A stretch of DNA of 25,857 nt from a virus. A program made the translations under genes and the position numbers. The notes beneath the pieces are model-generated. The model was not told where the DNA came from. It saw only the letters and a list, made by a program, of their open reading frames with translations, and did not search any database. How positions within the stretch are numbered: the first letter of the stretch is position 1; each line of letters begins with the position of its first letter. Positions 2,853-23,279 of this stretch are shown piece by piece. The stretch is taken from IMG/VR virus record IMGVR_UViG_3300025890_000138, positions 1 through 25,857 of that record, one strand, 5' to 3'.

Positions 2853-3059
2853 CTACACCATCTTTGTGTCACGAACACCGCGACCCGACATTACACAGCC
2901 GCCATTTTTGTAACCTTTGTTTATCATACCACCCTTTGCCTTTTTCGCGGTCTTTCCTGCATTGACAAAGTCTTGGTCACTAGGCGCACCCTTGTCGCCT
3001 TTTTTACGCATAGGCTTTCCGCTTTTTCGGCGGTTGTGTATATTCTCGTATAGACTCAT
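2853..3059 (-). CDS. Small basic Lys/Gly-rich phage protein (68 aa)
   Basis: A 68-residue very basic protein: MSLYENIHNRRKSGKPMRKK, then GDKGAPSDQDFVNAGKTAKK, ending in a glycine-rich tail with GRGVRDTKMV. Short Lys-rich proteins of this kind, beginning MSLYxNI and ending in Gly/Arg/Lys repeats, are common between structural genes of marine phages and have no established function; nucleic-acid binding inside the head is a reasonable guess. I chose the ATG at 3059 over upstream starts because it lies one base after the TGA of the preceding gene (TGATATG) and follows AGGGG about 10 bases upstream. Confidence 0.8.
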   Translation of the reverse strand: MSLYENIHNRRKSGKPMRKKGDKGAPSDQDFVNAGKTAKKAKGGMINKGYKNGGCVMSGRGVRDTKMV

Positions 3060-3060
3060 A

Positions 3061-3300
3061 TCATTTTTCCCCTCTGGTGGCGTGGATATCTGGAACGGCA
3101 TTGATGTTCTGCTTATGCTCATTATATTTTGCACTCCGTACTAAAAAATCCTGCCACATTGGTTTAATCATGTCATAGTTTGCACCGACCCTGTAGGTAA
3201 TCACCGCGGTGTCCGCTTTAAGTTGATACAGTTGCAACGCACCCCAGCATAACAGACCAATGGTAATTACAGACGCTAAGTTATTAAAATCGACTTTCAT
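3061..3300 (-). CDS. Small single-span membrane protein (79 aa)
   Basis: A 79-residue protein with a short N-terminal part (MKVDFNNLAS), one hydrophobic segment at about residues 9-25 (SVITIGLLCWGALQLYQL), then a polar helical domain with VGANYDMIKPMWQDFLV and a charged tail. That is the plan of small phage inner-membrane proteins, including some holin- or XhlA-like lysis accessories, but nothing specific identifies it. The gene sits among connector genes rather than in the lysis block, which argues against a holin. The ATG at 3300 overlaps the preceding TAA as TAATG; the codon two positions earlier is only TTG. Confidence 0.8.
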   Translation of the reverse strand: MKVDFNNLASVITIGLLCWGALQLYQLKADTAVITYRVGANYDMIKPMWQDFLVRSAKYNEHKQNINAVPDIHATRGEK

Positions 3301-4479: not shown

Positions 4480-5391
4480 TTAGGCTCCGGGGGAACCGTA
4501 AACACAACGTGGGTCTGAGAACCCAAAGCTGTAGCGCTCACGAGCTTTGAACCGCATGTTTCCGGTATCAAAGTCGGCTTCCATGTTTGTTGACAAAGCA
4601 GAACGCTCAAAGTGGATCATACCACGAGGTGCGTCAGTCATAACAAAGAAGTGATCCGGGTCAGTGAAGAAGTCGTTGACGGCATAGCCTTCAGGCAACA
4701 TCCCCATAGACCGGATTGCGTTTGTGTCGTTGTCCGCTGTACCTACGCGTAGGTTTGAAACCATCAAACGCTCTGCAACGAATTGCAGTTGACGTGGGAT
4801 AAGAAGTTTCGTGCCGCGTAGAGCAACTTTCAAACCGCGCTCATCAACAAAACCAGCGATATTGATAAGGGCATCTTCAAGAGATGTCTCGTTCAAATCT
4901 GCTGCTGTTGCTGGAGTGTTGGCAAACGTACCACCGTTAGTAAGAGGGTGGTTAGTTGCACACAATGCAACGCCGTCACCGCCTGCGTTCGCACCACCTG
5001 TAAAGGCGTTGTTGAGAACCGCAGCAGCTTTAACCTGCTTTGTGTGTGCCATTGAGCGAGCCAACGCACGAGTGTAACGCGAACCAAGACGATCATACAG
5101 ATTGTCTTCGATAGCTTCCTCTGTTATAGAGAAGGCCAACGCGATAGTTTCGTGGTTGTAACGAGCAGTGTATGCTTCGTTAGCGTCGTCAAAGTTGACC
5201 GCAGAACCTTCCGATTTGGTTGGTGCCGCTCCGAACCCACTCAACATTACTTCCTCTTCGAATGCTCGATCAGAAGATTCTGTTGTGTAGATCTCTGCGT
5301 GTTGGTTTTCGTACTTGTTGTACTCCATACCAAACAGCGCGTTGAGGCCCGGTTCTAGCTCTTTCGCTAGTTGTGCGCGAGAAATAGCCAT
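4480..5391 (-). CDS. Major capsid protein
   Basis: A 303-residue protein starting MAISRAQLAKELEPGLNALF. It contains EVMLSGFGAAPTKSEGSAV, then YNHETIALAFSITEEAIEDN (about residues 77-96), YTRALARSMAHTKQVKAAAV, ATNHPLTNGG, a LLIPRQLQFVAERLM segment (about residues 196-210) and MRFKARERYSFGFSDPR near the C-terminus. These are the hallmarks of the HK97-fold capsid proteins of the Mu-gpT-like group in marine phages: an N-arm, E-loop-like region, helix-rich P-domain and a final beta strand. No protease or long propeptide is evident, consistent with a separate scaffold gene upstream. GGGGG lies 8 bases before ATG, and a strong terminator follows the gene. Confidence 0.92.
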   Translation of the reverse strand: MAISRAQLAKELEPGLNALFGMEYNKYENQHAEIYTTESSDRAFEEEVMLSGFGAAPTKSEGSAVNFDDANEAYTARYNHETIALAFSITEEAIEDNLYDRLGSRYTRALARSMAHTKQVKAAAVLNNAFTGGANAGGDGVALCATNHPLTNGGTFANTPATAADLNETSLEDALINIAGFVDERGLKVALRGTKLLIPRQLQFVAERLMVSNLRVGTADNDTNAIRSMGMLPEGYAVNDFFTDPDHFFVMTDAPRGMIHFERSALSTNMEADFDTGNMRFKARERYSFGFSDPRCVYGSPGA

Positions 5392-6522: not shown

Positions 6523-7434
6523 TCAATCCTTTACAAATTTAGCGTATTCTTCAAGTGGAACGCCAAGCGACTTTGAAATCGCGACTTGAGAAGGCGTCAG
6601 TTTCACCGACCTGCGCCCCGATTTAGTGCTGCGGGATGCGGAAGAAGCAGCGGATGCGACCTGACTTCTTTCCCCCGTTTTCTTAGCCGTCTGAAACTTG
6701 TGTGGAAACTCCACACGCAACCGACGATCTATTTCAGTATAATACTCATTGCTCTCCGGGTCAAACCCCTCATCTTCGATAAGGGTAGCGTGGATAGCAT
6801 ATGTGGCAGAAGTAAGCATTCGATCAGACCCAAACCACTCGTTCTTCTGCGCCCAAGCCTCGGCTTTAGGATCCGGTTTTGGTGCAGGAGGTGGGGCAGA
6901 AGGAGCCGCGGCGGGAGCAGCTTGCTGCTGGACGGGCTGTTTTGCCTCGCGCTCTACCCTAGCTTTAGCCTGCCTATGGCGTTCCATTTCAGAGTTCAAC
7001 CGAGAAAGTTTTTCTTGAGCTTCCAGTTGCTTGTCACTGTCGCCTCGGTCCGCAGCATCTTTGTACGCTATCTTTGCCGCGCTCATTTCGATGTTAAGAC
7101 GGTTCCCGTACTCTTGGACATAACCTCGGTCCAAAAGTTTTAAACGGTCCTTCATCTTCTTGTTTTCTTCCATCAACTGAGAAGTCAGGCGAAGCGCTTC
7201 CTGTTTATCGCGCTCTTCCTTACGGTACTTATCTGTTAATTTCTTGATTCGATTCTGAACGTTTTTACTGTAATCGGTAAGCTCTTCGTCAGAACCTGTG
7301 TTTTCAGATTCTTCTTCCACAATTACTTCTGGTTGATCTTCTACAGGTTCAGCAGATTGGACTTCCTCTTCTGAAGCCTCGTCCTCAATGACTACCTCAA
7401 TCTCTTCTTCAATTTCTTCAGACGTGTTTGACAT
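6523..7434 (-). CDS. Capsid scaffolding-like protein
   Basis: The 303-residue product has the layout of phage scaffolds. An acidic N-terminus (about residues 1-55, poly Glu/Asp with Val) precedes a long charged coiled-coil (about 55-165: VQNRIKKLTDKYRKEERDKQ through EMERHRQAKARVEREAK). An Ala/Pro-rich linker (about 168-190), a folded part with AWAQKNEWFGSDRMLTSATY (about 195-215) and EGFDPESNEYYTEIDRRLR follow, ending in a basic helical C-terminus. The last 25 residues hold LTPSQVAISKSLGVPLEEYA, a helix-turn-helix type end that may bind the coat protein. The gene sits just before the capsid cluster. I chose ATG 7434, with GGAG 7 bases upstream; the ATG one codon earlier is equally possible. 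It overlaps the co-chaperonin stop by 17 bases. Confidence 0.85.
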   Translation of the reverse strand: MSNTSEEIEEEIEVVIEDEASEEEVQSAEPVEDQPEVIVEEESENTGSDEELTDYSKNVQNRIKKLTDKYRKEERDKQEALRLTSQLMEENKKMKDRLKLLDRGYVQEYGNRLNIEMSAAKIAYKDAADRGDSDKQLEAQEKLSRLNSEMERHRQAKARVEREAKQPVQQQAAPAAAPSAPPPAPKPDPKAEAWAQKNEWFGSDRMLTSATYAIHATLIEDEGFDPESNEYYTEIDRRLRVEFPHKFQTAKKTGERSQVASAASSASRSTKSGRRSVKLTPSQVAISKSLGVPLEEYAKFVKD

Positions 7435-7894
7435 CATCGGGCTCCAATATTGTTGCAATCACCTCGTCATCGTTAATGATGCGAACTTCTCCCCCATCGA
7501 TCTTAAATCGAGAACCAGAATATCGACCAATGCAAACCCACTGTCCCTCCTCACACCAAGCAGAGCCGTACTTTTTATCGCTATAAGCCAGTGGTCCCAG
7601 TTTAAGAACATATGCTACAACTGTAGCAACAGTTTCTCTTTCCCGAACCTCGTCGGGAAGGTGCAATCCGCCTTTTGTTTTCAGAGTACCTTGATACGGC
7701 ATTACCAATATTCGCCATCCTGTGGGCTGTGGTAATCGTTCAAGAAGGGATTTATCAAGAAGCGAAGGCTCTAGCACTCGGTCTTGAGTATCTACATACG
7801 CGCTACCAACCTCGGAAGAAGCAGACGATGAGTCCACCTTTTCTTTGTTCATTTTCTGCGCGACATGATCAGGAAGATATAATGTCTTCGACAT
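7418..7894 (-). CDS. Phage GroES-like co-chaperonin
   Basis: Residues about 57-152 follow the Cpn10 fold: PTGWRILVMPYQGTLKTKGG (first strand and start of the mobile loop), LHLPDEVRERETVATVVAYV, a region corresponding to the roof, EGQWVCIGRYSGSRFKIDGG and VRIINDDEVIATIL. The YSGSRFKIDGGEVRIINDDEVIA segment is the classic co-chaperonin C-terminal half. An extra N-terminus of about 55 Ser/Glu-rich residues is not part of GroES. Phage co-chaperonins such as T4 gp31 replace host GroES for folding the major capsid protein; location in the head operon next to the scaffold fits. The start overlaps the preceding gene by 26 bases and has only a weak ribosome site. Confidence 0.9.
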   Translation of the reverse strand: MSKTLYLPDHVAQKMNKEKVDSSSASSEVGSAYVDTQDRVLEPSLLDKSLLERLPQPTGWRILVMPYQGTLKTKGGLHLPDEVRERETVATVVAYVLKLGPLAYSDKKYGSAWCEEGQWVCIGRYSGSRFKIDGGEVRIINDDEVIATILEPDDVKHV

Positions 7895-8081
7895 CGTCAG
7901 CGTTATTCTCCAGCAGGGACTTTATTTCTTCTCTGGCAAAAGAGAGTCCCCGTACCTCTCCCACCATCATCTTATAAGTCTCCCAGTCTTTGGCAGACCC
8001 GTTGACTAATGAACGCCCAATATCATTTTCACGCTCTCTCAACAACCTATACACATGTTTCGCAAAGTCAACAACATCCAT
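7869..8081 (-). CDS. Hypothetical small helical protein (70 aa)
   Basis: A 70-residue charged helical protein: MDVVDFAKHVYRLLRERENDI, then SAKDWETYKMMVGEVRGLSF and REEIKSLLENNADDVEDI. I recognise MDxVDFAKHxY...NGSxxxxExYxxxVGxxxGLxxAxxEI as a recurrent phage protein with no function, found next to scaffold or GroES genes. The start overlaps the previous stop as TAATG and the end overlaps the co-chaperonin start by 26 bases. An assembly helper or head-binding helix bundle is conceivable, but nothing in the sequence proves it. Confidence 0.85.
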   Translation of the reverse strand: MDVVDFAKHVYRLLRERENDIGRSLVNGSAKDWETYKMMVGEVRGLSFAREEIKSLLENNADDVEDIISS

Positions 8082-8440
8082 TATAGGTTATCCCTGTATT
8101 CCTCTTGTAAGTCGGATGTAATCGGACCACCCTCTACCCACTCGCTACATGTGCTTTCGCTCATACATGAAAACTTTAGCAATTGGCAATACCCAAGATC
8201 CCCAGAGTCGTCTCCAATGCAAGCAAGCATGTCCTCTGTTTGATTATACATTCCACAGTTTCCGCACTCCTCGTCCGTAGTGGCGGGGCCGTAGTTGTAT
8301 TCTGCAATCGCAATGTCTTTGTTTTCTTGGTTTAACTCTTCATCTTGCGTTGGGAGCGGACAACTCTTGCCGTCGTCATCGCTCTCCATTTTATCTACAG
8401 GCATTCCGTCAGGAAGCACACTGATCATAATTGTTGTCAT
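8081..8440 (-). CDS. Cys-rich, possibly metal-binding protein (119 aa)
   Basis: From ATG 8440 the product is 119 residues. After a charged N-terminus come seven Cys: C27, then a cluster C59-x2-C62-x11-C74-x10-C85-x6-C92-x5-C98 with Trp at 101, in the frame CGNCGMYN...LACIG...GYCQLLKFSCMSESTCSEWVEGGPI. The arrangement CxxC...C...C followed by a Cys-x-x-Trp ending resembles high-potential iron-sulfur proteins (four Cys on one 4Fe-4S cluster), though spacings differ and there are two extra Cys. I also recognise this frame as an uncharacterised marine phage protein. ATG 8440 has GGAAAG 8 bases upstream; a GTG three codons earlier has no such site. It is coupled to its downstream gene by TAATG. 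Confidence 0.82.
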   Translation of the reverse strand: MTTIMISVLPDGMPVDKMESDDDGKSCPLPTQDEELNQENKDIAIAEYNYGPATTDEECGNCGMYNQTEDMLACIGDDSGDLGYCQLLKFSCMSESTCSEWVEGGPITSDLQEEYRDNL

Positions 8441-8519
8441 TGGTAGCACTTTCCACGTTTAGAATTGTCACGGACATCAAAAGATACGGGAGGTCTTACG
8501 AGATTTGGGCCTTTTCCCT
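8437..8519 (-). other. Out-of-frame 3' extension of the 8749 gene
   Basis: Minus-strand +1 frame relative to the gene starting at 8749, from the GGGAAAAGG run to a TGA at 8439-8437 that overlaps the next ATG. It encodes GPNLVRPPVSFDVRDNSKRG then KCYQ. Over the 12 codons shared with the end of the gene at 8774, five bases differ and four of the five changes are synonymous (Pro to Ser is the exception), which is what selection on this frame would leave. Confidence 0.7.
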
Positions 8520-8749
8520 TTAACACCGCCAGTGTCCATATAAAATCCAGCGTTTTGCCCTCCCGTCGATTTTGGGGTTACACTAGCCGGGCGATCCTTA
8601 GTGCCATGTTTGGTTTGAAAAACTAACGGGCCAGCGGGTTTAGCCAAGTTAGGAGTCTTAGGGTCGTTAGGAATGGACTTAGCGGCTCGCGTAGATGCAG
8701 ACTTTTTTCGCAACTTGCGGAGTTGAGAGGCTTTTTTTAATCTAGGCAT
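8477..8749 (-). CDS. Small basic protein, 90 aa, probably frameshifted near its 3' end
   Basis: The open frame codes 90 residues: a Lys/Arg/Ser-rich N-terminus (PRLKKASQLRKLRKKSAS), LVFQTKHGTKDRPASV, and GFYMDTGGVKGK, then an unusually basic ending RPKSRKTSRIF. In the +1 frame the DNA instead continues GPNLVRPPVSFDVRDNSKRG and KCYQ. This copies the C-terminus of the upstream neighbour (DVRDNPKRGKCY), and its stop overlaps the next start as ATGA, as elsewhere in this operon. So the true product probably ends at 8437 (103 residues), reached by a one-base difference in the AAAA run at 8512-8515 or by +1 frameshifting. ATG 8749 follows AAAGGAA with 6 bases of spacing. Confidence 0.8.
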   Translation of the reverse strand: MPRLKKASQLRKLRKKSASTRAAKSIPNDPKTPNLAKPAGPLVFQTKHGTKDRPASVTPKSTGGQNAGFYMDTGGVKGKRPKSRKTSRIF

Positions 8750-8773
8750 GAGGGGTTCCTTTCTAGGATAGGG

Positions 8774-9277
8774 TTAGTAACACTTCCCACGTTTAGGGTT
8801 ATCACGGACATCGGCAGCGCGAACTTCGCCCCCTGATCTAAAGCTGCCCTCAAAGTTCTCAAGAGTTCCCTTACCATTTTTACGGGTACTAAACATGGGG
8901 GGTAACATTCTATTGGGCGGCGGTTTTCCAACAGGCAATTTCTTGGTGCCTAGTTTTTTAGACATGTTTCTTTTGTACGGCATTTGAAAGGTTTTTGTAC
9001 CACCCATCGAAGTGGGCATGTCCGGATCTTTGGGTATCTTTGGGGTCTTTGGAGCGACCTTAGGAGCGACCTTACCACCGCGTCTATATTTTTCTTTATC
9101 CATGTCCTCAAAGATCTCCGGATTTTTACGCAGAAGTTTTTCTACCTCTTGCGACATAAATTGTTGTTTGCCAGCGTTTGGACTTTTAGTGCCGCCCATA
9201 GCCTCATATGCAGACTCGCCTTCCATAAAACGACGTAGTTGCTCTTTCGTAAACGACTTCTTTTTCTTCTTAGCCAT
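8774..9277 (-). CDS. Basic Lys/Pro-rich hypothetical protein (167 aa)
   Basis: A strongly basic 167-residue protein opening MAKKKKKSFTKEQLRRFMEG. It is followed by a helix with SQEVEKLLRKNPEIFEDM (about residues 42-59), a Lys/Pro repeat region (VAPKVAPKTPKIPKDPDMP, about 70-88), GGTKTFQMPYKRNM, and a C-terminus EVRAADVRDNPKRGKCY. The low-complexity basic make-up suggests nucleic-acid contact or disorder. Its C-terminal 12 residues are repeated out of frame at the end of the next gene, so the two genes probably share an ancestral tail. The start overlaps the endolysin stop by 8 bases. Function is unknown. Confidence 0.83.
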   Translation of the reverse strand: MAKKKKKSFTKEQLRRFMEGESAYEAMGGTKSPNAGKQQFMSQEVEKLLRKNPEIFEDMDKEKYRRGGKVAPKVAPKTPKIPKDPDMPTSMGGTKTFQMPYKRNMSKKLGTKKLPVGKPPPNRMLPPMFSTRKNGKGTLENFEGSFRSGGEVRAADVRDNPKRGKCY

Positions 9278-11093: not shown

Positions 11094-11254
11094 GTTACAC
11101 GAAAGCTCCTTGGACAATAATACTCGGGGCTAACGCGGTACACACGTTTGGGGTACTCGTTACGACACTGGTAGTGACACGCTTTATAGAACCAGCTACC
11201 GTACCCGTTCACAAAAACGTGCCCGTATCCTACGAATACAAGCACACACAACAC
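11090..11254 (-). CDS. Short Cys/Tyr-rich ORF, probable secreted or membrane protein (54 aa)
   Basis: An ORF of 54 codons starting GTG at 11254, one base into the preceding TAG, with GGAG 7 bases upstream. Its TGA overlaps the next ATG (ATGA). The product begins MLCVLVFVGYGHVFVNG, a short hydrophobic stretch that could be a signal or anchor, and continues YGSWFYKACHYQCRNEYPKR then VSPEYYCPRSFRVT. The three Cys in the body (CHYQC, YYC) and many Tyr look like a small disulfide-bonded domain. The double overlap with both neighbours, in the style of this operon, is the main support; I know no named family, though similar short Cys-rich phage proteins with KxCxYxC...CP ends come to mind. Confidence 0.62.
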   Translation of the reverse strand: MLCVLVFVGYGHVFVNGYGSWFYKACHYQCRNEYPKRVYRVSPEYYCPRSFRVT

Positions 11255-11451
11255 TAGAACACTCCGACAAACCTCTGAGGTCGGGCTATCGGACTAAACC
11301 TTTTATTAACCGTACCGCCAGAAGAATATTTACGTTTACCCGCTTTGCTTAAAGCAATAGCAACCGCCTGTTTTTGCGGTTTTCCAGCAGCCATTTCTGT
11401 CTTGATGTTTTGACTGACAACACCTTGTGATTTGCCTGATTTTAAGGGCAT
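11254..11451 (-). CDS. Small basic phage protein of the PQKQAVAIALS family (65 aa)
   Basis: A 65-residue protein: MPLKSGKSQGVVSQNIKTEM, then AAGKPQKQAVAIALSKAGKR, then a basic, Gly-rich end. The pattern PLKSGKS...ISxNIxxxMxxGKPQKQAVAIALSKA is a very common short phage protein, usually near portal or scaffold genes, with unknown function. The helix KQAVAIALSKA probably folds over the first one to form a tiny two-helix domain. The start overlaps the portal stop as TAATG, with GGAGGGG just upstream. The GTG of the next small ORF overlaps its own TAG. Confidence 0.87.
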   Translation of the reverse strand: MPLKSGKSQGVVSQNIKTEMAAGKPQKQAVAIALSKAGKRKYSSGGTVNKRFSPIARPQRFVGVF

Positions 11452-13934
11452 TATCCCCTCCGTTGCATAGCCATTTGCTGGATCTCAGCATTAACAGCAA
11501 TCCGCTCTCTGTTAACCGCATTGCGGTCATCGGCAATCTCTTCCTGCAAGTCCATGCGAGCGTTGTCTAAACGATCACGCTGCTCGACCTTGTTCATCTC
11601 TAACTCAAGTTTAGCAGCATCATTCACGGCATCCTGCCCTTGTTTCTGCTTACGCAACTCTAGCTCCTGCATCCGAATAGCTACTAACGGATCAGGCTCG
11701 TTCGGGTTCTCAGGCATTAAACGAGCCATTACGTCCGCCATAATCTTCTGTTGGTACAGTACGACTAGGTTCTCAACTTCCTGTTGATTCTGCAAGTCTT
11801 GCTGCAATTGTTTTTCATACTCTTGCACCGATCCTTGGCTGACCGCGCCTACATTTGCCATCATCTTAGCCCCGCTTAACGCTTGCTTGACCTCGTCCAT
11901 AGCCTGCTTCTTCGCAAGCATACTGACGTGCTCCTGAATATGAGACATAAACGATCCCATGATCTGTGGAGACGTTGCCACGATAGGCGTCTTCATAAAC
12001 ATAATGTGGATCTCGATGTGTACTTCGTGATTCTGCTCTGGGAATGCGCGTAGAATTTCGCCCATAAGAGCTTTGGCATTCTCCATGGCGGGATCCATCG
12101 GTTGAGGTTCTTGGGGTGGGGGCAAGATCTCATCAATGTTCTGGACCTCAAGCGCTTGGTACATCCTACGGTATGCAGCGTGAAGGTTGTGCATCTGTGG
12201 ATTAGACTGAGCCAGTTGGAGTTGAGTCTGAGCCAGCGTAACGCGTTGCGCCATGGAGAATATGTTCGGATCACTGACAGGCAAGACATCAATCTTGTCG
12301 TCGAAATCCTGTTGCTTAATCGCAGCCGAACCACCCGCAACCTCATATGGGTATTCAGGAGGCATGTTTTCTTTAAAAATGCGAGCTAATAAACGAAACT
12401 CAGTCTTTTGCGAATAGTGCAAACGTTTGTGGATCGCGGACATAACCTTCATGCCACGTTCCAACATCGCTACTGTCGTACCAACAGGCGTTTCTCCGCT
12501 CATGTTGTTTATTTGCTGATCAGCGATAGAAATGAACCTACGTCCATCCTCGATCAAACCACCCAGCAGTTGCGCCAAAGTCCCCGAAGGTTCTTTGTAT
12601 GGCAATGGGATTAATGAGTCCCGTATGTTGCCACCGGGCGCATCTATGTCCCGCCATTCCCCGGGTTGCAAAGGCTCATCATCGTTCCGAACCCGAACCC
12701 CTCTCGCCTTGAATCCTGCTGGGAGATTCGCCAAAGTTCCCGCATCAATAAGTTGACGTAGAATACTTGTAGCGGCACGACCAAGGCCCCCTATCATGTG
12801 GATCAAACCAAAACCGTAAAACCCTAGACCCGGTAGAAACTTGTAATGCACAAAATACGGACGCTTCTTACGAAGTGGATCCATCTCTGCATAGTTCCTG
12901 CGGATAGCTAAGATCTGATTACTGTCTTTGTCTATCGTCACAATATAAGGGAGCTTGATACCCGTGGGCTCGCCCATGGGATCTGCATCCTCAAAACCCT
13001 CAATGTCGAGATCGCAGTGCATCTCTAAAATAGTTCTGATATCGTCTGTATAGCCCCGTGAGATGCCTTGTAGTTTATTTACCTTCTGATCCACCTCATC
13101 TTCGTCTGGGTCTCCAGAGCCTGATAAATCAACGTCCATGTACGCACCAGATACTTGCATCTTACGCACATCGTTATCGGTCATCTTTAAAACGTGTGTC
13201 ACACGAGGAGCCGTCGCCAAATCAGTAGCAGAATACGACACCACTAAATCTTGTGCAGGTAAAAACTCTGCTACAGCGCGACCTTTCAACGGATCAAAAT
13301 ACACTTTCTTAAAGGTCGAACCAGACAAGGGAAGGTAAAACAGCATCTGATCCATGCCCGGATCATACTCTTCCATCTCTTCCATGATCTGGTAGTTCAT
13401 GTAATGCTTGACGCGCTGGGCCTGATCCTCGCGCTTCTGGTCCTGCAAACCAATAACTTGAGTGCGAACTGGACCTCCAGCAGGGAGCATTTCCTTGTAC
13501 GCCTGCGCTTGGAACTGCGTAACGCTTTCAGTAATTAACGGGTGCGTAACCCCACTAGCGCCTTCAAACGGCTGAGACCGCTCTTCAGAGTTGATACCAA
13601 GAAGATCAAGACCCTTTGTATACGTCTCTTCCCACTCGCTACGAGAGTCGTAATCCTCTTCATAGAGGCCCACAAGCTCGCTACTAATTTCCCCAAGAAC
13701 GCCATCATCTAAAAACTCCGCAAGGTTAGCGTCGTGATCAATTATCTCAACCTCAACGTCCTGATCTTCCATTTCAGACATGGCTTGCACAATCGCTCCG
13801 CCTTGTCCGTCGTCAATTACCTCGGCACCCCCAGTGAAATCTACTGGGCTGGGCACGTCCACTTCGACATCAGGAAGACCCTCTGTGCTGTCTAAGTCTA
13901 GGCCCGGTACAACCATGTTTGGTGGTAATGCCAT
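11451..13934 (-). CDS. Portal protein, P22-like
   Basis: An 827-residue protein with an acidic N-terminus (about 1-80) and a Tyr/Glu/Asp-rich entry (ELVGLYEEDYDSRSEWEETY). RSQPFEGASGVTHPLITESV (about 118-137) lies in the helical part, and FLPAQDLVVSYSATDLATAP in the wing-like region. FLPGLGFYGFGLIHMIGGLG (about 369-388) and ISIADQQINNMSGETPVGTT (about 471-490), followed by a MLERGMKVMSAIHKRLHYSQ helix, lead to the core. A long Gln/Glu/Arg-rich coiled coil (about 690-827) probably forms a barrel. In P22-like phages the portal is a dodecamer at one vertex, with the barrel extending into the capsid. It directly follows the terminase (TGATG overlap). AGTGTCGGGAG-like sequence within the terminase 3' end (GGGAG, 8 bases before ATG) serves as ribosome site. 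Confidence 0.93.
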   Translation of the reverse strand: MALPPNMVVPGLDLDSTEGLPDVEVDVPSPVDFTGGAEVIDDGQGGAIVQAMSEMEDQDVEVEIIDHDANLAEFLDDGVLGEISSELVGLYEEDYDSRSEWEETYTKGLDLLGINSEERSQPFEGASGVTHPLITESVTQFQAQAYKEMLPAGGPVRTQVIGLQDQKREDQAQRVKHYMNYQIMEEMEEYDPGMDQMLFYLPLSGSTFKKVYFDPLKGRAVAEFLPAQDLVVSYSATDLATAPRVTHVLKMTDNDVRKMQVSGAYMDVDLSGSGDPDEDEVDQKVNKLQGISRGYTDDIRTILEMHCDLDIEGFEDADPMGEPTGIKLPYIVTIDKDSNQILAIRRNYAEMDPLRKKRPYFVHYKFLPGLGFYGFGLIHMIGGLGRAATSILRQLIDAGTLANLPAGFKARGVRVRNDDEPLQPGEWRDIDAPGGNIRDSLIPLPYKEPSGTLAQLLGGLIEDGRRFISIADQQINNMSGETPVGTTVAMLERGMKVMSAIHKRLHYSQKTEFRLLARIFKENMPPEYPYEVAGGSAAIKQQDFDDKIDVLPVSDPNIFSMAQRVTLAQTQLQLAQSNPQMHNLHAAYRRMYQALEVQNIDEILPPPQEPQPMDPAMENAKALMGEILRAFPEQNHEVHIEIHIMFMKTPIVATSPQIMGSFMSHIQEHVSMLAKKQAMDEVKQALSGAKMMANVGAVSQGSVQEYEKQLQQDLQNQQEVENLVVLYQQKIMADVMARLMPENPNEPDPLVAIRMQELELRKQKQGQDAVNDAAKLELEMNKVEQRDRLDNARMDLQEEIADDRNAVNRERIAVNAEIQQMAMQRRG

Positions 13935-15400: not shown

Positions 15401-16440
15401 GACATCATATTCTGTGGGCGTCTCTGATACGGAGTTCCGTACATAAACGGATACATCTGTTGGTCTTTCATCGCCGCCTGAGTGCCCATAATGCCTCGTT
15501 GGGCGGGTCTAGGCTGTCCGAAGTTAGGAGGCAACTGTGTGGGCTGTGTCAGCGCCTGCCCTGTGGGTCTAGCCATAGGCTGGTCTAACGCAGAGGGTAA
15601 ACGTACAAAAGGAACCTTCCCCGGCGCTGTGGGCGCGGCTGGTGTTGTAGCCGCCGGGTCTACTCCTACGGCTTCCGCTGAAACCGGAGACGGGCTGTCG
15701 TCCCTGTCCCGACTTGGCTCGGGCACAGGAGTTGGTTTGATTAGATCAGATCCAAGCCCCTGATAATCTGCCATCCGATCTCCAGAGTACCGAAGAGGAC
15801 TCCCTGATGCGTCTAACCCTAAAGAACCAACCAACTGGTCGTTCTCGTCGTACACCGGGACATACTGCGCAGCATCGGCACCCTTAAACAAATCCGTGCC
15901 GAACAAACCTTTTGTCTGGTAGTCCCCTTGTTGCAGCAATTGTTCCGCAACCTTGCGGTCTTCCGCAGCACCTAGATACTGTGATGCTCCGTACAGCAAA
16001 CCAGCCCCGGGGATAACCGCGCCCAACAGACCACCAATGACCATGTCTTTTGTGTTCATCGGGTCATACTGTGATTGTGACATCGCAGTTAATTGGTCTG
16101 CGTTTAAGGACTCTATGCCCCCAACATATCCGTACTTACGAGCGTCTTGGGCGGCTTGACCCGGCGTTGTTGTTGGCTGCACCTTTGCCAACTCTTCAGC
16201 GCGAGTGTCCCCAACAACTTTACGAGCCTGTTCTTGCGAACTACCACCAGAAGAAGTCCCGAAGTTTCCTGAGTATGTAGATGCTCCAGAACCTTTGCTC
16301 GCAATGTTTAAGGATGCACCAGCTTGGATGTTGTTAGCGTTACTGATCTGTGGATTGGACGCCATGATCTCCGCAACAGATGTGTTATTCTTTTCAGCTA
16401 TCTCGCTGAGTGTGTCTCCACTCTGAATTGTATATGCCAT
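15397..16440 (-). CDS. LysM-domain protein with hydrophobic middle (347 aa)
   Basis: Residues 1-47 are a LysM domain (MAYTIQSGDTLSEIAEKNNT, AEIMASNPQISNANNIQAG, then SLNI), which binds GlcNAc-containing glycans such as murein. A Ser/Gly linker leads to a helical part (QARKVVGDTRAEELAK), then GLLGAVIPGAGLLYGASQYL (about residues 136-156, hydrophobic and Gly-rich), and a Pro/Gln/Thr-rich low-complexity C-terminus (about 245-347). No catalytic motif is visible. The same three-part plan, LysM then hydrophobic then Pro-rich, is found in the much larger gene just upstream, so the two may be related or function together in the virion. The start overlaps the upstream TAA (TAATG) and the stop overlaps the terminase ATG. 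Confidence 0.85.
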   Translation of the reverse strand: MAYTIQSGDTLSEIAEKNNTSVAEIMASNPQISNANNIQAGASLNIASKGSGASTYSGNFGTSSGGSSQEQARKVVGDTRAEELAKVQPTTTPGQAAQDARKYGYVGGIESLNADQLTAMSQSQYDPMNTKDMVIGGLLGAVIPGAGLLYGASQYLGAAEDRKVAEQLLQQGDYQTKGLFGTDLFKGADAAQYVPVYDENDQLVGSLGLDASGSPLRYSGDRMADYQGLGSDLIKPTPVPEPSRDRDDSPSPVSAEAVGVDPAATTPAAPTAPGKVPFVRLPSALDQPMARPTGQALTQPTQLPPNFGQPRPAQRGIMGTQAAMKDQQMYPFMYGTPYQRRPQNMMS

Positions 16441-19400
16441 TATTTTCTACCTAATCCGCCTATACCCTGATTTATAACAGGTTGAGGCTGTTGTGGGAAG
16501 GGTGGTCGTACAACGGGTTGTTGTGGGTTAAATGCAGGCGCTTCAGGCATTTCCATCTCATATGGATTAAAAGGACCAGCCGAAGTAGGCATTGTGACAT
16601 ATGAGCCCAAAGGACGCCCTGTCGAACCAAAACTTAAAATAGGTTGACCAAACTGATCCAACTCCACAGCAGGGCCCCCAGCAATCGGGGTCGCATCGTC
16701 CCGAGTAAACGGATCAAACCGTGGGGCCTCGTACACTGGTTGAGTAGGAGGCGGCTGATACGCAGTGGCTGGCGGCTGATATGGCTGCTGTGCTTGTGCT
16801 TGTGCTTGTGCTTGTGGCTGCACTGTCCCCGTCCCGGGAGGACCGTAGTCAGGATAAGTGACCTCGTCCTCTTCTCCACCAACAGGCCCCGCTCCAAACG
16901 GCACATACGCCGCCGACCTACGAGCATCCGTTATACGAGCCAACTCCGATTGCTCAAACCGTGTTTGCTGCACCTCGTTTACCAACGCTTGCGCGTTATC
17001 CGCTGTGTATCCTCGTGTGACCAAGTCCGCAACCAATGCATCCTCCGCAACGTTCTGGTCTAGCTGCGTGTTGATATAAGTTGTGGCCCCTTGCGCAAAG
17101 TCTAACTGCGTTTGCGTAATATCAAATGCCGACGTTACCTCACCTAGCTGCGTCTCAAGCGATGCCGCGTTGGCCTGCTCTTTTGCCAAAGTCTGCTCTA
17201 ACGCTGCGCGTTGCTCTTCTGTTAACTGCTGTAATGCTTGGCTATCGCCCAACTGAGACTCCAGACCCAGAATATTCTCTTGTGCCGTGGTTAAATTACC
17301 CTGCAAGGTTTCCGTAAGCGTCGTGCTCGCCGTTAACTCTGCTTTCGTTTCATTAAGCTGCTTCTCAATGTTATTGCGCTCTGTTGTTCGAGAACCCAAT
17401 TGGTCTGTAAGGCTTTGCACATCATTCTGTGACGTTGTTAGATCGTTTTGTAAATCTAGTTTCTCAGCGTCAGTAAGCTCTTGTAACGCAGTGGCATCCG
17501 TTAACGTTTCTTTTAACGAATCCACATTTGCCTGCGCCGTATCTAATTGATTTCCAAGAGTGTTTATCTCCGCGTTAGACGCGTCCAAATTAGTTTGCAG
17601 CGTGTTGGCTAACGTTACCGTGTTGCTTAACTTAGTTTTTGTATCGTTCAAACTAACTTGAAGGTTGTCTCTTTCCTTAGTGCGAGCCGACAAACTTTGA
17701 GTAAGGGCTCGTGCATTTTCCCGCGCCGTGTCTAAATTAGCAGCAATCGTATCTTTTTCAGTCTGTGTAGCAGTCAACGAGTTGTTAGCTGCCTCCAGTT
17801 GCCCCTCCAACGCCGTTACTGATTCCTTTGCAGTACCTAACTGCCCGGTCAAACTGCTAACATCCTGATTAGCTGCGCCCAAATCCGTAGTTAATGTGGT
17901 AATCGCCTCGGCTTGGTTCCCAATTGTTGTTTCCTGAGTACCAATTGTGGACTGTGCCGCCGTGAGATCCGCCTTTAACGTGTCACGCTGTCCCTCTAAC
18001 TTCGTAATATCCGACAGCAGAGACGTGGCTTCCTTCTGGGCCGCATCCAACTGTCCAGCCAGCGCAGCTTTCTGCTCCGCCGTTGCCGTCTGAGAGTTTT
18101 GCGCAGCCTCCAACTGATTGGACAAGCTCGAAACGTCGTTCGTCGCAGTGGTAAGTTGCCCCTGCAAACTTTCAATCGTAGCGTTTGCGGTATCGACTTC
18201 CAACCCCAAGGATTCAATCGACTTGGAACTGGATTTTTGCAGATTAGAGAGATCACTTTCCGCGGAAGTCAGTTTTTTCTGTAACTCGTTCTTCGCAGCC
18301 TCTTCTATACCCAAGGAATCCGATAACGTCTGCACCTCAAGGTTCGCAGCCTCTAGCGATGCCTCGGCGGCGGCTAGATCTGCGTCCGATATGGTCTGAT
18401 TTTCTTTTTGAGACGCAATTTCTTTCTCCAACGCCGTAACATCAGCCATAGTTTCGTTTAGCTCAGTCGTCATACTACTAATAGTGCTGTTTGCGGTCTG
18501 TAGTTGCGTGTTTAAGTTTTCCGCTAACGCCGCACTAGACCCCGATGCCTCTAATGCAGCGGTTAAATTCGTGTTCGCCGTGCCCAATTCGGTGGTTAAG
18601 GTCGCAACCTCCTTGGTTAACACCTCTTTCTGAGACGTTAAGTCAGTGACTTGTGTGTTAGCCGCAGTTAGTTGTTTGTTAGCTGCTTCTAATTGCGTGT
18701 TACTTGAGGTCAGGGACTCCTGAAGAGTATCTCGCTCCTTTGTCCGCTCGTCTAACGTACCCTGTAGACTATCCCGCTCGCCTATCGCCGTGCTTAAATC
18801 GCCATCCAACCCAGTCTTGGCGTCTTCCAAAGCCTTAATTTCCGAGTTTAGGGACGTAATCGTCTCCGCACTGGTCTCCACACTAGCCGAAGCCGTGTCT
18901 AACTCGTCTTGCTTGGCTAATACAGCGTCTTCTGCCGCCTTAACGTCTGCTGCTAGCCCCGTAATCTCTTCGTTCTTAAACTTGATGTCTTCATTTAACT
19001 TCGTAACCACCTTGTCCGCCGCCTCAGTCGCAGCTTCCGCGGTCCCTACGTCGGTATTCAACCCCTCTATCGTAGAGTTTAGGGTCGAAACCTTATCATT
19101 CGCAGAATCAAGGCTCGATTGTAGATCCGTAATCGTACTATTGGCAGAACCAAGGTCCGAGGTCAGAGATGTAACGTTCTGTTCCGCAGTTGCACGGGTT
19201 TTAGTCTCCGCCTCCAACGCTGTTTGCGTCTCACCAAGCGTCTTTTCTACACCTGCAAGCTCCTCCTTCTTAGCAGAAAGCTCCCCGCTTAACTGTTCCT
19301 GCTTGGCAATCGCCGTAGCCGCAGCCTCAGAGTCCAAATCACGGTTGCTTGTCATCTCAATTAAGTCCGCTTCAACCGCTGATAGCTCGTTCGTTAGGGA

Positions 19401-22400
19401 TGTAACCTCCGATTGCAACGAAGTCTGACTGCCCGTTAAATCCCGAACCTCTTTAATCTGATCCGCAAACATCGCGTCGTTGTATACAGACAAATCCGAG
19501 TCCAAATACTCAGCGTAATTACCAAGATCCTGCATCGAAACGCCAAAGTCTTCTTCCGCCTTGAGCATCGTATCCAGATCAATGTAACCCTTGGTCAAGT
19601 AATCGCCCAGAAGACGCTTCTCCCATGCCGCATCCGAAGCCGTGATCTGCTGGTAGTGCTCGTTAATCTCAAACGGACTGACCCCAAACTCCTGCTCAAC
19701 CTGCTTCGCCAAGTCCATGTCAATCGAACCAGTCAGATAAAACGCCTCATCCAACTGCGTCTTCCACTCAGGCTTCGTAGCCACAACCGTCTCTTCAGTC
19801 GTGGTCTCCGGATCAGTAACACTGTACACAGACGAATTGTCCGCAACGTAAACCTTACCACTGTCGTTATCTATAACGCCGTCGTACCCAGATTCCGCAA
19901 CCTTCTGTACATCCGCACCAGTCAAAGTAACGTTGCCGTTCTGCTGAAACTCGCTGATCAACGCATCTGCCCGACTAGATCCAAGAACCTCGGTCAACGT
20001 CTCTTTGCCCTTGGGCGTTCCAATGCTCTCAATCGTCAAAGGATTCTGAACATCCAAGTACACAGGAACAGCGTCCTTGCTTGGATTTGCCGAAAACGTA
20101 ATCGCACCACGATCACGGTACATAATAGCTGGATCACCAGCGCCAGTCTTAATGACCGTGTCCTGAAACGCACTGTTCGCAGCCATACCCTCAATGGTCA
20201 TCTGCGGAGCGTCCGTCATGGCGTTGATCGTGTTCGTGCCAGTCAAGTTGCCAAACACACCCGATATCTGCTCAATCGTATAACCACGGTCCAGCAGCGC
20301 ACCAATCCGTTCAGGCGACATCTCACCCGTCACGATGCCACCGTCAGACTCCTCAATCATCGCAATCTCAGTGTCCGAGTAGCCGTTGGCCTTCAAACCA
20401 TCGACCATGCTCTTCGTCATCCGAGCACCACCAGATATCGCACCACCAACAATCCCGCCCATTACCGCGGCGTCCACCGTTCCGTCAAACATCCCGCGGT
20501 TCGGATCCCAAATACCCTGCGCCGTTAAGTTGTTTAGCGTCTGGTTCAGACCCTCTTGTCCGCCTTCCGCAATAATGTCCGTGAAAAATTCTGCAACCTG
20601 ACTACCAAACTGCGGAGGAACAAAGCCCAACGCACGAGCAACAGGTATACCTTCTAACGTACCAATAAGAGTCGCGTACCCCGTACCTTGGAGCGCTATC
20701 GCATCTGCTTTTTCTGGAGTATACAGTTGACCAGTGGCAGGATCTGTTTGTTTTAATGTGAACGCATACGCTTCGTCATACATCGAACCCGCGTTAACCA
20801 ACGCACCGCCCGTCGCCGCAAAAGTAGCCGCTAACGCAGGAGCCGCCGCTGGACCCGCCAAAACAGCAGGAGCCGAAAGCGCAATAAACGCTAACGCACT
20901 GCCAAAACCGTTACCTACCTGATACGCAAACGAATCTTCCGCGCCGGGCTTGCCCACAAGCTCAGAGCCTTTCTCCTTGATCGTGTCAGCAAGCTGCCCC
21001 CAATAGGTCTCATCAACTGTAATGCCAGCAGCTTCCATCGCCGCGTTGTGCTGCTCCGTTGCGTTGATTATACGCTGCTGCTCGTTCTGAATGCGACCCT
21101 GTAACATCGAAGCGTTCATCGTAACGCTACGACCCGGCGCTACCTCCACTTCAACTTCAAAATTCTCCAAATACTCCACAGGATCCATTGCCGAAATCAA
21201 ACCACGAGCAATGTTTTCGTCCGACATCAAATCGTTCATAACCGATTGATACTTGGACTTGATATCCCCAGCGTCCGTTAATGTCTGCACCAAGGCTTCT
21301 ACCGTCGCAGCCGCGTCTGCCTTCTGAACAGCACCCATACCCGTCGCTCCAGAAGCAATAGTATTAACTACGCCTGTGCCAATCCCCTTTGCAAAATCCG
21401 TCGCAGAATCACCAAGCGTCCGACCCGACGGATCCTCAATAACAACACCCGCACGGTTGCCCGGGGTCCTCGGCGCTGGGGCCTCCCCAACCTGTGACGC
21501 CGCTGCAAACGCAGCCTTGTTATCAGCAGCAGCCGTGAAATTCATCGGAGAAAGAGCCTGAACCTCCTCCGAAATCTCCATGTCCGGTACGCCGTCCTTG
21601 TTCTCATCCAAGAACATCTCGCCGCCAAACATTAAAGCATCGACCTGCGCCTCAAACTCAACCGTGCGCGGAGTATAACCAGCTTCCAGTACAGTCAACG
21701 ATTGCCGCATCATATTGTCATCAACCGACGTGCCCGGAACCGAAGATATACGCTGACCATCAGGCGCAAAAACGGACATCAAACCGCTCTCGTCGTCGTA
21801 CTCAACACTATAAGGCGTGTCCTTGTACGTCGTCGCGTTCAAAACCTCCGTAATGCTCGGAGCCTCAAAAACGTTCGAGCCAGTTACAAGGTTACGAGTA
21901 AGTATCGGGTCACCATATTCCCCCGTGTACCGCGCCTCGGTAATCATATTACCAACCTTAATCGCTGTCCCCGCTCCAGCAACAGGCTCCACATCCCCAT
22001 CCACATTGGTGGTCACAACTTCGTAATTCTCAGGATTTGAACGATCCACAATCTTTACGTCGTTCGATGTCGCCTCCGCAGGAGTGTCAAACGCATTCCC
22101 GTAACTGTCCAAAACCTTACGCTCACCGTCAACAAACGTCAGATCATAATACTGATCCTTGTCCGACGCACTCTCCTGCGCCGTGTCAACAGACTCCCAA
22201 CTAGGCGTACTATACGAAATAGGAGGAAGACCCTCGTCACCAACGTAAATCCGAACCAAATCATCCTGCTGGTTCGTGTCTATCCGGTAATTACTAGGAT
22301 CCTCATACGACGCTACCTTGCGGTTAATAACAATGTCCGAAGCCGCCGCCTCCTCAATGTTATCAAACTTCTGACCAGCCTTGTCCGCAACAAACGCCTT

Positions 22401-23099
22401 ACCACCCTCAATAACAACATCCAACGATGATCCGGGTTTCGAGGTGCCAGAATCAATAGCCGCGAAACTCGGAACCGTGTAGTTACCACCACTAGGCGCA
22501 GGCTCACTGCCAATGTACTGCTTGTCTAAATCCCCGCGCTCGTTACTCGTAATGATCCAATTCGACGGGTTATTCCAAGACTCCTGACGACCATACTGAA
22601 CATCCGCGTTGTCACGAGCCGACTTCGTACCATGAGGATTACCAAACTGATCGTAATAGTTGCCGTCAACCGTAACCGCATTAGTCGGGGTCTTCTCGTC
22701 AAACACACTCTGAGGCAACCCAGCATACACATTACTCGTGTCCCCAGAAGTGGTGCCCGGAATAGTCAAAGTCTGACCAACCGAAATGTTGTTCACGTCC
22801 GATAACGCTATCCCACTCGCATTCGCTATCGCCGCAACCGTCGTACCATTGTCCAAGGCTATCTGACCAAGAGTGTTCCCACTCGAAACCTTGTAACTCG
22901 TGTCCGCTGGCGCATTGTAGTTGTCCTCGAACCCTTTGTCCGCCTGACCCGCCGCATAATTAGACGCCGCCGCCGAACCTTCGTTCCGAGCTATCGTCGC
23001 AGCAGTTCGGTCTATGTAGTCTTGGTCCTTCTCTTTAGCACCAGTGCCCATTGCGATATCGTTAGCTACGCTTTCGAACAAATCAGAAAGCCATCCCAT
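16440..23099 (-). CDS. Giant LysM / degenerate ART-like / coiled-coil protein (2219 aa)
   Basis: Order of parts: charged N-terminus; LysM at about residues 68-114 (YKVSSGNTLGQIALDN...GQTLTIP); three ~85-residue repeats (~145-376); a Ca-loop-like DENKDGVPDMEI (498-509); Gly/Ala-rich hydrophobic segments (~729-770 and 869-894) around AEGGQEGLNQTL; an ADP-ribosyltransferase-like part (~975-1094: DPAIMYRDRGAITFSANP, VYLDVQNPLTIES, SGYDGVID); two FGVS repeats (~1120-1200); about 800 residues of heptad coiled coil (~1214-2017); a Pro/Gln-rich C-terminus with (QA)4. No signal peptide, nuclease or protease motif is evident. ATG 23099 follows GGGAG with 8 bases of spacing; a TTG six codons earlier lacks one. 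Possibly a virion-internal entry/effector protein or fibre; position before terL does not suit an ordinary tape measure. Confidence 0.9.
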   Translation of the reverse strand: MGWLSDLFESVANDIAMGTGAKEKDQDYIDRTAATIARNEGSAAASNYAAGQADKGFEDNYNAPADTSYKVSSGNTLGQIALDNGTTVAAIANASGIALSDVNNISVGQTLTIPGTTSGDTSNVYAGLPQSVFDEKTPTNAVTVDGNYYDQFGNPHGTKSARDNADVQYGRQESWNNPSNWIITSNERGDLDKQYIGSEPAPSGGNYTVPSFAAIDSGTSKPGSSLDVVIEGGKAFVADKAGQKFDNIEEAAASDIVINRKVASYEDPSNYRIDTNQQDDLVRIYVGDEGLPPISYSTPSWESVDTAQESASDKDQYYDLTFVDGERKVLDSYGNAFDTPAEATSNDVKIVDRSNPENYEVVTTNVDGDVEPVAGAGTAIKVGNMITEARYTGEYGDPILTRNLVTGSNVFEAPSITEVLNATTYKDTPYSVEYDDESGLMSVFAPDGQRISSVPGTSVDDNMMRQSLTVLEAGYTPRTVEFEAQVDALMFGGEMFLDENKDGVPDMEISEEVQALSPMNFTAAADNKAAFAAASQVGEAPAPRTPGNRAGVVIEDPSGRTLGDSATDFAKGIGTGVVNTIASGATGMGAVQKADAAATVEALVQTLTDAGDIKSKYQSVMNDLMSDENIARGLISAMDPVEYLENFEVEVEVAPGRSVTMNASMLQGRIQNEQQRIINATEQHNAAMEAAGITVDETYWGQLADTIKEKGSELVGKPGAEDSFAYQVGNGFGSALAFIALSAPAVLAGPAAAPALAATFAATGGALVNAGSMYDEAYAFTLKQTDPATGQLYTPEKADAIALQGTGYATLIGTLEGIPVARALGFVPPQFGSQVAEFFTDIIAEGGQEGLNQTLNNLTAQGIWDPNRGMFDGTVDAAVMGGIVGGAISGGARMTKSMVDGLKANGYSDTEIAMIEESDGGIVTGEMSPERIGALLDRGYTIEQISGVFGNLTGTNTINAMTDAPQMTIEGMAANSAFQDTVIKTGAGDPAIMYRDRGAITFSANPSKDAVPVYLDVQNPLTIESIGTPKGKETLTEVLGSSRADALISEFQQNGNVTLTGADVQKVAESGYDGVIDNDSGKVYVADNSSVYSVTDPETTTEETVVATKPEWKTQLDEAFYLTGSIDMDLAKQVEQEFGVSPFEINEHYQQITASDAAWEKRLLGDYLTKGYIDLDTMLKAEEDFGVSMQDLGNYAEYLDSDLSVYNDAMFADQIKEVRDLTGSQTSLQSEVTSLTNELSAVEADLIEMTSNRDLDSEAAATAIAKQEQLSGELSAKKEELAGVEKTLGETQTALEAETKTRATAEQNVTSLTSDLGSANSTITDLQSSLDSANDKVSTLNSTIEGLNTDVGTAEAATEAADKVVTKLNEDIKFKNEEITGLAADVKAAEDAVLAKQDELDTASASVETSAETITSLNSEIKALEDAKTGLDGDLSTAIGERDSLQGTLDERTKERDTLQESLTSSNTQLEAANKQLTAANTQVTDLTSQKEVLTKEVATLTTELGTANTNLTAALEASGSSAALAENLNTQLQTANSTISSMTTELNETMADVTALEKEIASQKENQTISDADLAAAEASLEAANLEVQTLSDSLGIEEAAKNELQKKLTSAESDLSNLQKSSSKSIESLGLEVDTANATIESLQGQLTTATNDVSSLSNQLEAAQNSQTATAEQKAALAGQLDAAQKEATSLLSDITKLEGQRDTLKADLTAAQSTIGTQETTIGNQAEAITTLTTDLGAANQDVSSLTGQLGTAKESVTALEGQLEAANNSLTATQTEKDTIAANLDTARENARALTQSLSARTKERDNLQVSLNDTKTKLSNTVTLANTLQTNLDASNAEINTLGNQLDTAQANVDSLKETLTDATALQELTDAEKLDLQNDLTTSQNDVQSLTDQLGSRTTERNNIEKQLNETKAELTASTTLTETLQGNLTTAQENILGLESQLGDSQALQQLTEEQRAALEQTLAKEQANAASLETQLGEVTSAFDITQTQLDFAQGATTYINTQLDQNVAEDALVADLVTRGYTADNAQALVNEVQQTRFEQSELARITDARRSAAYVPFGAGPVGGEEDEVTYPDYGPPGTGTVQPQAQAQAQAQQPYQPPATAYQPPPTQPVYEAPRFDPFTRDDATPIAGGPAVELDQFGQPILSFGSTGRPLGSYVTMPTSAGPFNPYEMEMPEAPAFNPQQPVVRPPFPQQPQPVINQGIGGLGRK
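16791..16814. repeat. Hexanucleotide repeat (TGCTTG)x4 in the giant gene
   Basis: Four perfect 6-bp units on the plus strand code (QA)4 near the C-terminus of the giant protein, inside a Pro/Gln-rich region. Such runs can change length by slippage. It is a coding low-complexity tract, not a regulatory array. Confidence 0.85.
17190..17735 (-). repeat. Two degenerate tandem repeats of 98 and 84 residues in the coiled coil
   Basis: Copy 1 (17735-17442) and copy 2 (17441-17190) of the giant gene align without gaps over their first ~64 residues: LSARTKERDNLQVSLNDTK against LGSRTTERNNIEKQLNETK, and LANTLQTNLDASNAEINTL against LTETLQGNLTTAQENILGL. Copy 2 then lacks 14 residues, exactly two heptads. 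This implies the coiled coil grew by duplication and changed length in register. Confidence 0.7.
21975..22667 (-). repeat. Three degenerate ~85-residue repeats in the giant protein
   Basis: Three units share an (E/D)G...DxxGxxF...A...DV...NP(S/E)NYxIxT...DD(L/V) pattern: NNPSNWIITSNERGDLDKQY, YEDPSNYRIDTNQQDDLVRI and RSNPENYEVVTTNVDGDVEP. Each probably forms a small beta domain. They lie between the LysM and the hydrophobic middle. Confidence 0.7.
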
Positions 23100-23114
23100 C
23101 AGTAATACTCCCGT
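23096..23114. repeat. 19-bp direct repeat, copy 2 (start of giant gene)
   Basis: Identical to 13931-13949. Here it supplies GGGAG and the ATG of the giant gene; there the same bases serve the portal gene and end the terminase gene. Confidence 0.9.
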
Positions 23115-23279
23115 CAACCGAATTATGCATGTTTATATCAGCTTTTTTTGAACTTGGCGAGTACGGTTTAGTTTGCAATGAAATTACCCCCGCGATTTTT
23201 AGAGGGGGTAGGGGTCCCAATGGAAAAATACCCGAGTGAATTTACAAAACCAATAATATAGAAGGCCGCAGTTCCCTTG

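Follow-up and report, generated by a model that had tools for sequence, protein, structure and literature searches.

The 25,857 bases analysed here, which we call the window, form a viral record from a marine tailed phage and carry genes for an endolysin, a terminase, a portal, a GroES-like protein and the major head protein. The terminase is about 58-60% identical to those of phage 023Pt_psg01 and Pelagibacter phage HTVC027P, by this measure the nearest cultured or deposited relatives, and the gene order in the structural blocks of these two phages resembles that of the window. The GroES-like co-chaperonin gene (phrog_3188; 7418-7894, minus strand) lies within the structural block and is also present in HTVC027P, 023Pt_psg01 and phage DSL-LC04. 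There is also a very large ORF on the minus strand at 16440-23117, which begins with TTG, encodes 2225 aa and has a LysM-like stretch close to its beginning as well as long coiled-coil-like repeats.

The locus discussed below comprises three consecutive genes, for proteins of 167, 90 and 119 aa, and two copies of a short tail sequence (Table 1). A comparison of the 167-aa protein with solved structures gave no significant match.

Table 1. Features of the small-gene locus, listed in the direction of transcription
Feature	Positions	Strand	Remarks
167-aa basic gene, intact, C-terminus GGEVRAADVRDNPKRGKCY	8774..9277	-	Homologue in relatives lies directly 5' of the 119-aa gene
Tail copy A, 39 nt including TAA	8774..8812	-	In-frame end of the 167-aa gene
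Segment missing in relatives	8479..8811	-	From BLAST breakpoints and repeat offset of 334
Intergenic leader CCCTATCCTAGAAAGGAACCCCTC	8750..8773	-	Shine-Dalgarno-like AAGGAA, -5.6 kcal/mol
Orphan 90-aa basic gene	8477..8749	-	Codon usage indicates coding in +0; L002 has the only other copy found
Tail copy B (DVRDNSKRGKCYQ)	8440..8478	-	+1 relative to the 90-aa ORF; adjoins and overlaps the 119-aa gene start
119-aa gene	8081..8440	-	Relatives in at least 80 viral contigs

The 90-aa ORF ends in KSRKTSRIF, with an AAAA run at 8515-8512 and a TTT codon (8482-8480) immediately before the TGA stop at 8479-8477. Its +1 frame reads GPNLVRPPVSFDVRDNSKRGKCYQ and closes with a TGA (8439-8437) that overlaps the ATG (8440-8438) of the 119-aa gene. 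All of this had been described in an earlier sequence-only reading and is confirmed, as is the statement that the +1 tail repeats the C-terminus of the neighbouring protein. That reading took the arrangement for a frameshift in a small basic gene, arising from a sequencing or assembly error in the AAAA run, from a real mutation or from a programmed +1 shift; it did not recognise that the region is an insertion relative to its relatives.

Codon usage assigns the 90-aa ORF as a whole to the +0 frame, and likewise its last 20 codons with a posterior of 0.987, but does not discriminate between the frames when limited to the 12 codons that begin at the AAAA run and end at the stop. Searches for relatives of the 90-aa gene among phages and genomes and in three scans of viral contigs found none besides that in a second contig, L002, and a looser fourth scan for the C-terminus gave only chance matches, none with a comparable reading frame. 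PHROGs and Pfam gave nothing significant. Two apparent similarities were set aside: that of the RKTSRIF ending to DSL-LC04 tails (KKTRIC and KKTKIY) fails a shuffle test, with 623 and 255 of 2000 shuffles as good, and that of residues 25-33 (SIPNDPKTP) to the 167-aa family, with a phmmer E of 0.005 against a tiny set, was not taken as homology.

The repeat of the neighbour's C-terminus is a repeat of DNA. The tail sequence GATGTCCGTGA... is present at 8812 and again at 8478, an offset of 334 nt, and the copies are identical at 32 of 38 positions. In 200 shuffles of the region in 2-mer blocks the best value was 26/38 (mean 22.4), so the repeat is not due to chance; the two copies are of common descent. 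Over 38 nt copy A matches the single tail of L007-L010 exactly. In copy B the ancestral TAA, which the relatives keep as their stop, has become CAA, and three of its four changes relative to L011 are synonymous in the tail frame, as would fit a degree of earlier selection on it.

Relatives of the 119-aa protein number at least 80 in viral contigs, and in 44 contigs the gene directly 5' of the 119-aa gene ends in one in-frame copy of the tail, as DVR-N--RGK-Y or a close variant such as the DVRYSNKGKCY of L066-L068. The stop and start codons overlap as TAATG or TGATG at the start of the 119-aa gene in all 44. The sequence-only reading had proposed a comparison with relatives at this position, and they carry the tail in frame, on whatever gene stands before the 119-aa gene. 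Among all loci fetched, two tail copies are found only in the window and L002. These contigs are not identical: in an ungapped alignment of 7,513 nt L002 differs from the window at 10 positions (99.87% identity), and it has the same homopolymer runs, stop and tail. Seven of the 10 differences are within 70 nt of the portal gene (12981-13050, minus strand), perhaps a small recombination tract.

L003-L006 have a 119-aa protein identical to that of the window, but in them the homologue of the 167-aa gene adjoins the 119-aa gene with nothing between. BLAST alignments of relatives (L003-L012 and others) break exactly at 8774 and 8478, and L003 and L005 match the window at 98-99% on both flanks, their alignments ending at 8774 and resuming at 8478. 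The insertion unit is thus 334 nt, comprising the leader with AAGGAA, the 90-aa ORF and one extra copy of the tail; its ends are ambiguous inside the repeat, 8811-8478 being equivalent to 8773-8440.

We think it probable, at about 85%, that a small-gene cassette lies between the 167-aa and 119-aa genes, and was either acquired by the lineage of the window or lost from its relatives through recombination at the tail. The cassette consists of the 90-aa ORF with its own leader, flanked by two copies of a 38-nt sequence encoding the conserved C-terminal tail DVRDN(P/S)KRGKCY, which would serve as a short boundary homology joining otherwise unrelated small genes during recombination. Most likely translation of the 167-aa gene ends at copy A, and that of the 90-aa gene starts from its own Shine-Dalgarno-like leader and terminates at the TGA at 8479-8477, while copy B, now part of the leader of the 119-aa gene, would be a relict from which no protein tail is made. 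As the overlap of stop and start ahead of the 119-aa gene is lost and the Shine-Dalgarno sequence of that gene is weak, its expression may have changed. There is then no need for a frameshift in a conserved gene, because the 167-aa gene, the counterpart of the tail-bearing gene of relatives, keeps copy A intact and copy B is the far boundary of the insertion. Of the proposed frameshift the out-of-frame tail is thus real, but it need not come from a break in a conserved gene.

The six sites at which copies A and B differ bear on the mechanism. At these sites the cassette-free but otherwise near-identical L003-L006 read A-A-A-B-B-A, the upstream half being A-like and the downstream half B-like, as predicted by recombination between tail copies. 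The last of the six sites is the TAA stop, and CAA is confined to copy B in the window and in L002, so that a single exchange inside the tail, with a later change in copy B, would account for the pattern. With six sites only, this is suggestive of the single tail of L003-L006 being a recombinant of the two copies. As to direction, the many more distant relatives that are also cassette-free favour gain in the lineage of the window over loss in L003-L006.

Two histories remain for the reading frame, as the junction may have been out of frame from the outset, or an in-frame tail may have been lost later by a 1-nt indel. The second is a sub-case of the cassette explanation, of which we would give it a minor share: the inserted gene would once have ended in an in-frame tail, and a later 1-nt indel within 8533-8478 would have cut its end back to RKTSRIF, with the tail surviving as a pseudogene fragment. 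The tail abuts the 119-aa gene and is in frame in 44 of 44 tail-bearing relatives, the tail of Island3 gp68 (see below) is also in frame, and the loss of the stop in copy B fits relaxed selection. However the searches of phages and genomes and the three scans of viral contigs found no 90-aa relative with an in-frame tail, and the spacing from GG to DVRDN would exceed that of the relatives (about 4-6 residues). The real mutation of the earlier reading is thus tenable, if doubtful, as an indel following insertion, and is unneeded as a frameshift in a conserved gene.

In our view it is very improbable that programmed +1 frameshifting takes place at UUU_UGA, adding the DVRDN tail to a minor product and restoring coupling by termination at the start of the 119-aa gene. 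A UUU before UGA does permit re-pairing of Phe-tRNA, the product would be RIF-DVRDNSKRGKCYQ with its UGA overlapping the next AUG, which is the coupling seen in relatives, and the 119-aa gene has a weak Shine-Dalgarno sequence (-3.3 kcal/mol against a random mean of -2.8). Those energies also led us to reject the idea that copy B is retained as a strong Shine-Dalgarno sequence for that gene. Against a programmed shift, there is no Shine-Dalgarno-like motif just upstream of UUU_UGA, where the sequence is the pyrimidine-rich CUCCCGUAUC; the stop context is UGAU and not the weak UGAC, and U at +4 is reported to reduce readthrough (PMC5289835); folding downstream is no better than in shuffles (z = 0.59); the site is conserved in just two near-identical contigs, the window and L002; and the stop/start arrangement follows automatically from the insertion breakpoint. 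At the +1 sites of prfB there is an SD-like element a few nt upstream, followed by CUUU and UGAC (PMC12421855). The window resembles these in having a codon ending in UU before UGA, but it is without the SD-like element and without CUU, has UGAU for UGAC, and is not conserved.

A slighter prospect still is that GG-VR-DVRDN-KRGKCY is a functional, swappable tag, which low-level +1 slippage at UUU_UGA would still append to the 90-aa protein, so restoring coupling to the next gene. Least probable of all is a homopolymer error in sequencing or assembly: homopolymers (AAAA and TTTT) are indeed adjacent, but L002 carries the same runs, stop and tail despite its 10 differences from the window, so an isolated assembly error cannot explain the structure, and a duplication is no 1-nt error.

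There is a near-exact precedent for the arrangement in mycobacteriophage Island3 when set against Brujita. Island3 gene 68, an orphan gene of 85 residues, is an insertion relative to Brujita and follows another small gene; the 3' end of gene 68 is a repeat of that of its upstream neighbour, with 60 bp shared and the last 18 residues similar, and the single copy in Brujita is a recombinant of the two copies in Island3 (PMC3029335). Both cases thus have an orphan insert, a repeated gene end and a recombinant single copy in a close relative. They differ in that the inserted gene of Island3 reads in frame through the second tail, whereas in the window this tail is in the +1 frame and beyond the stop of the inserted gene; the in-frame tail is a feature of the Island3 example and not of the mechanism, and the window lacks it. 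The window also represents a different phage group with a different sequence, and the tail at its slot is common to several protein bodies. The gene-sized mosaicism of tailed phages, with conserved boundary sequences and morons, is similar in that an insertion the size of a gene separates neighbours that adjoin each other in relatives, and there is homology at the boundaries. However conserved boundary sequences lie between genes, while the boundary in the window is inside coding sequence, in a C-terminal tail.

The slot itself, that of the gene at 8774-9277 (minus strand) in the window, is generally mosaic on comparison across L003-L071, as the tail GG-VR-DVRDN-KRGK-Y follows several unrelated small protein bodies there, in seven clusters. 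In L026 and L039 (the ORF ending at 5001) two bodies are fused in frame near an internal GGEVR, which suggests recombination at the tail in other lineages. Other small basic proteins of the window, encoded at 2853-3134 and 11254-11451 on the minus strand, likewise have GG close to the C-terminus (KNGGCVMSGRGVRDTKMV and SSGGTVNKRFSPIARPQRFVGVF). That at 11254-11451 and one from DSL-LC04 (L093:7667-7918) have similar beginnings, MPLK-G-SQ...AIA-SKAGK, and differing GG-containing C-terminal tails.

This locus illustrates a trap in the detection of frameshifts, since a duplicated gene end beside an inserted gene mimics a frameshift until relatives are aligned. It also adds a clear case of recombination at a repeat inside a coding end, with near-identical cassette-free relatives available, and points to a slot at which one conserved C-terminal tail joins several unrelated small proteins. 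We thus see in the window ordinary phage mosaicism, in a fresh instance for which Island3 and Brujita provide the published precedent.
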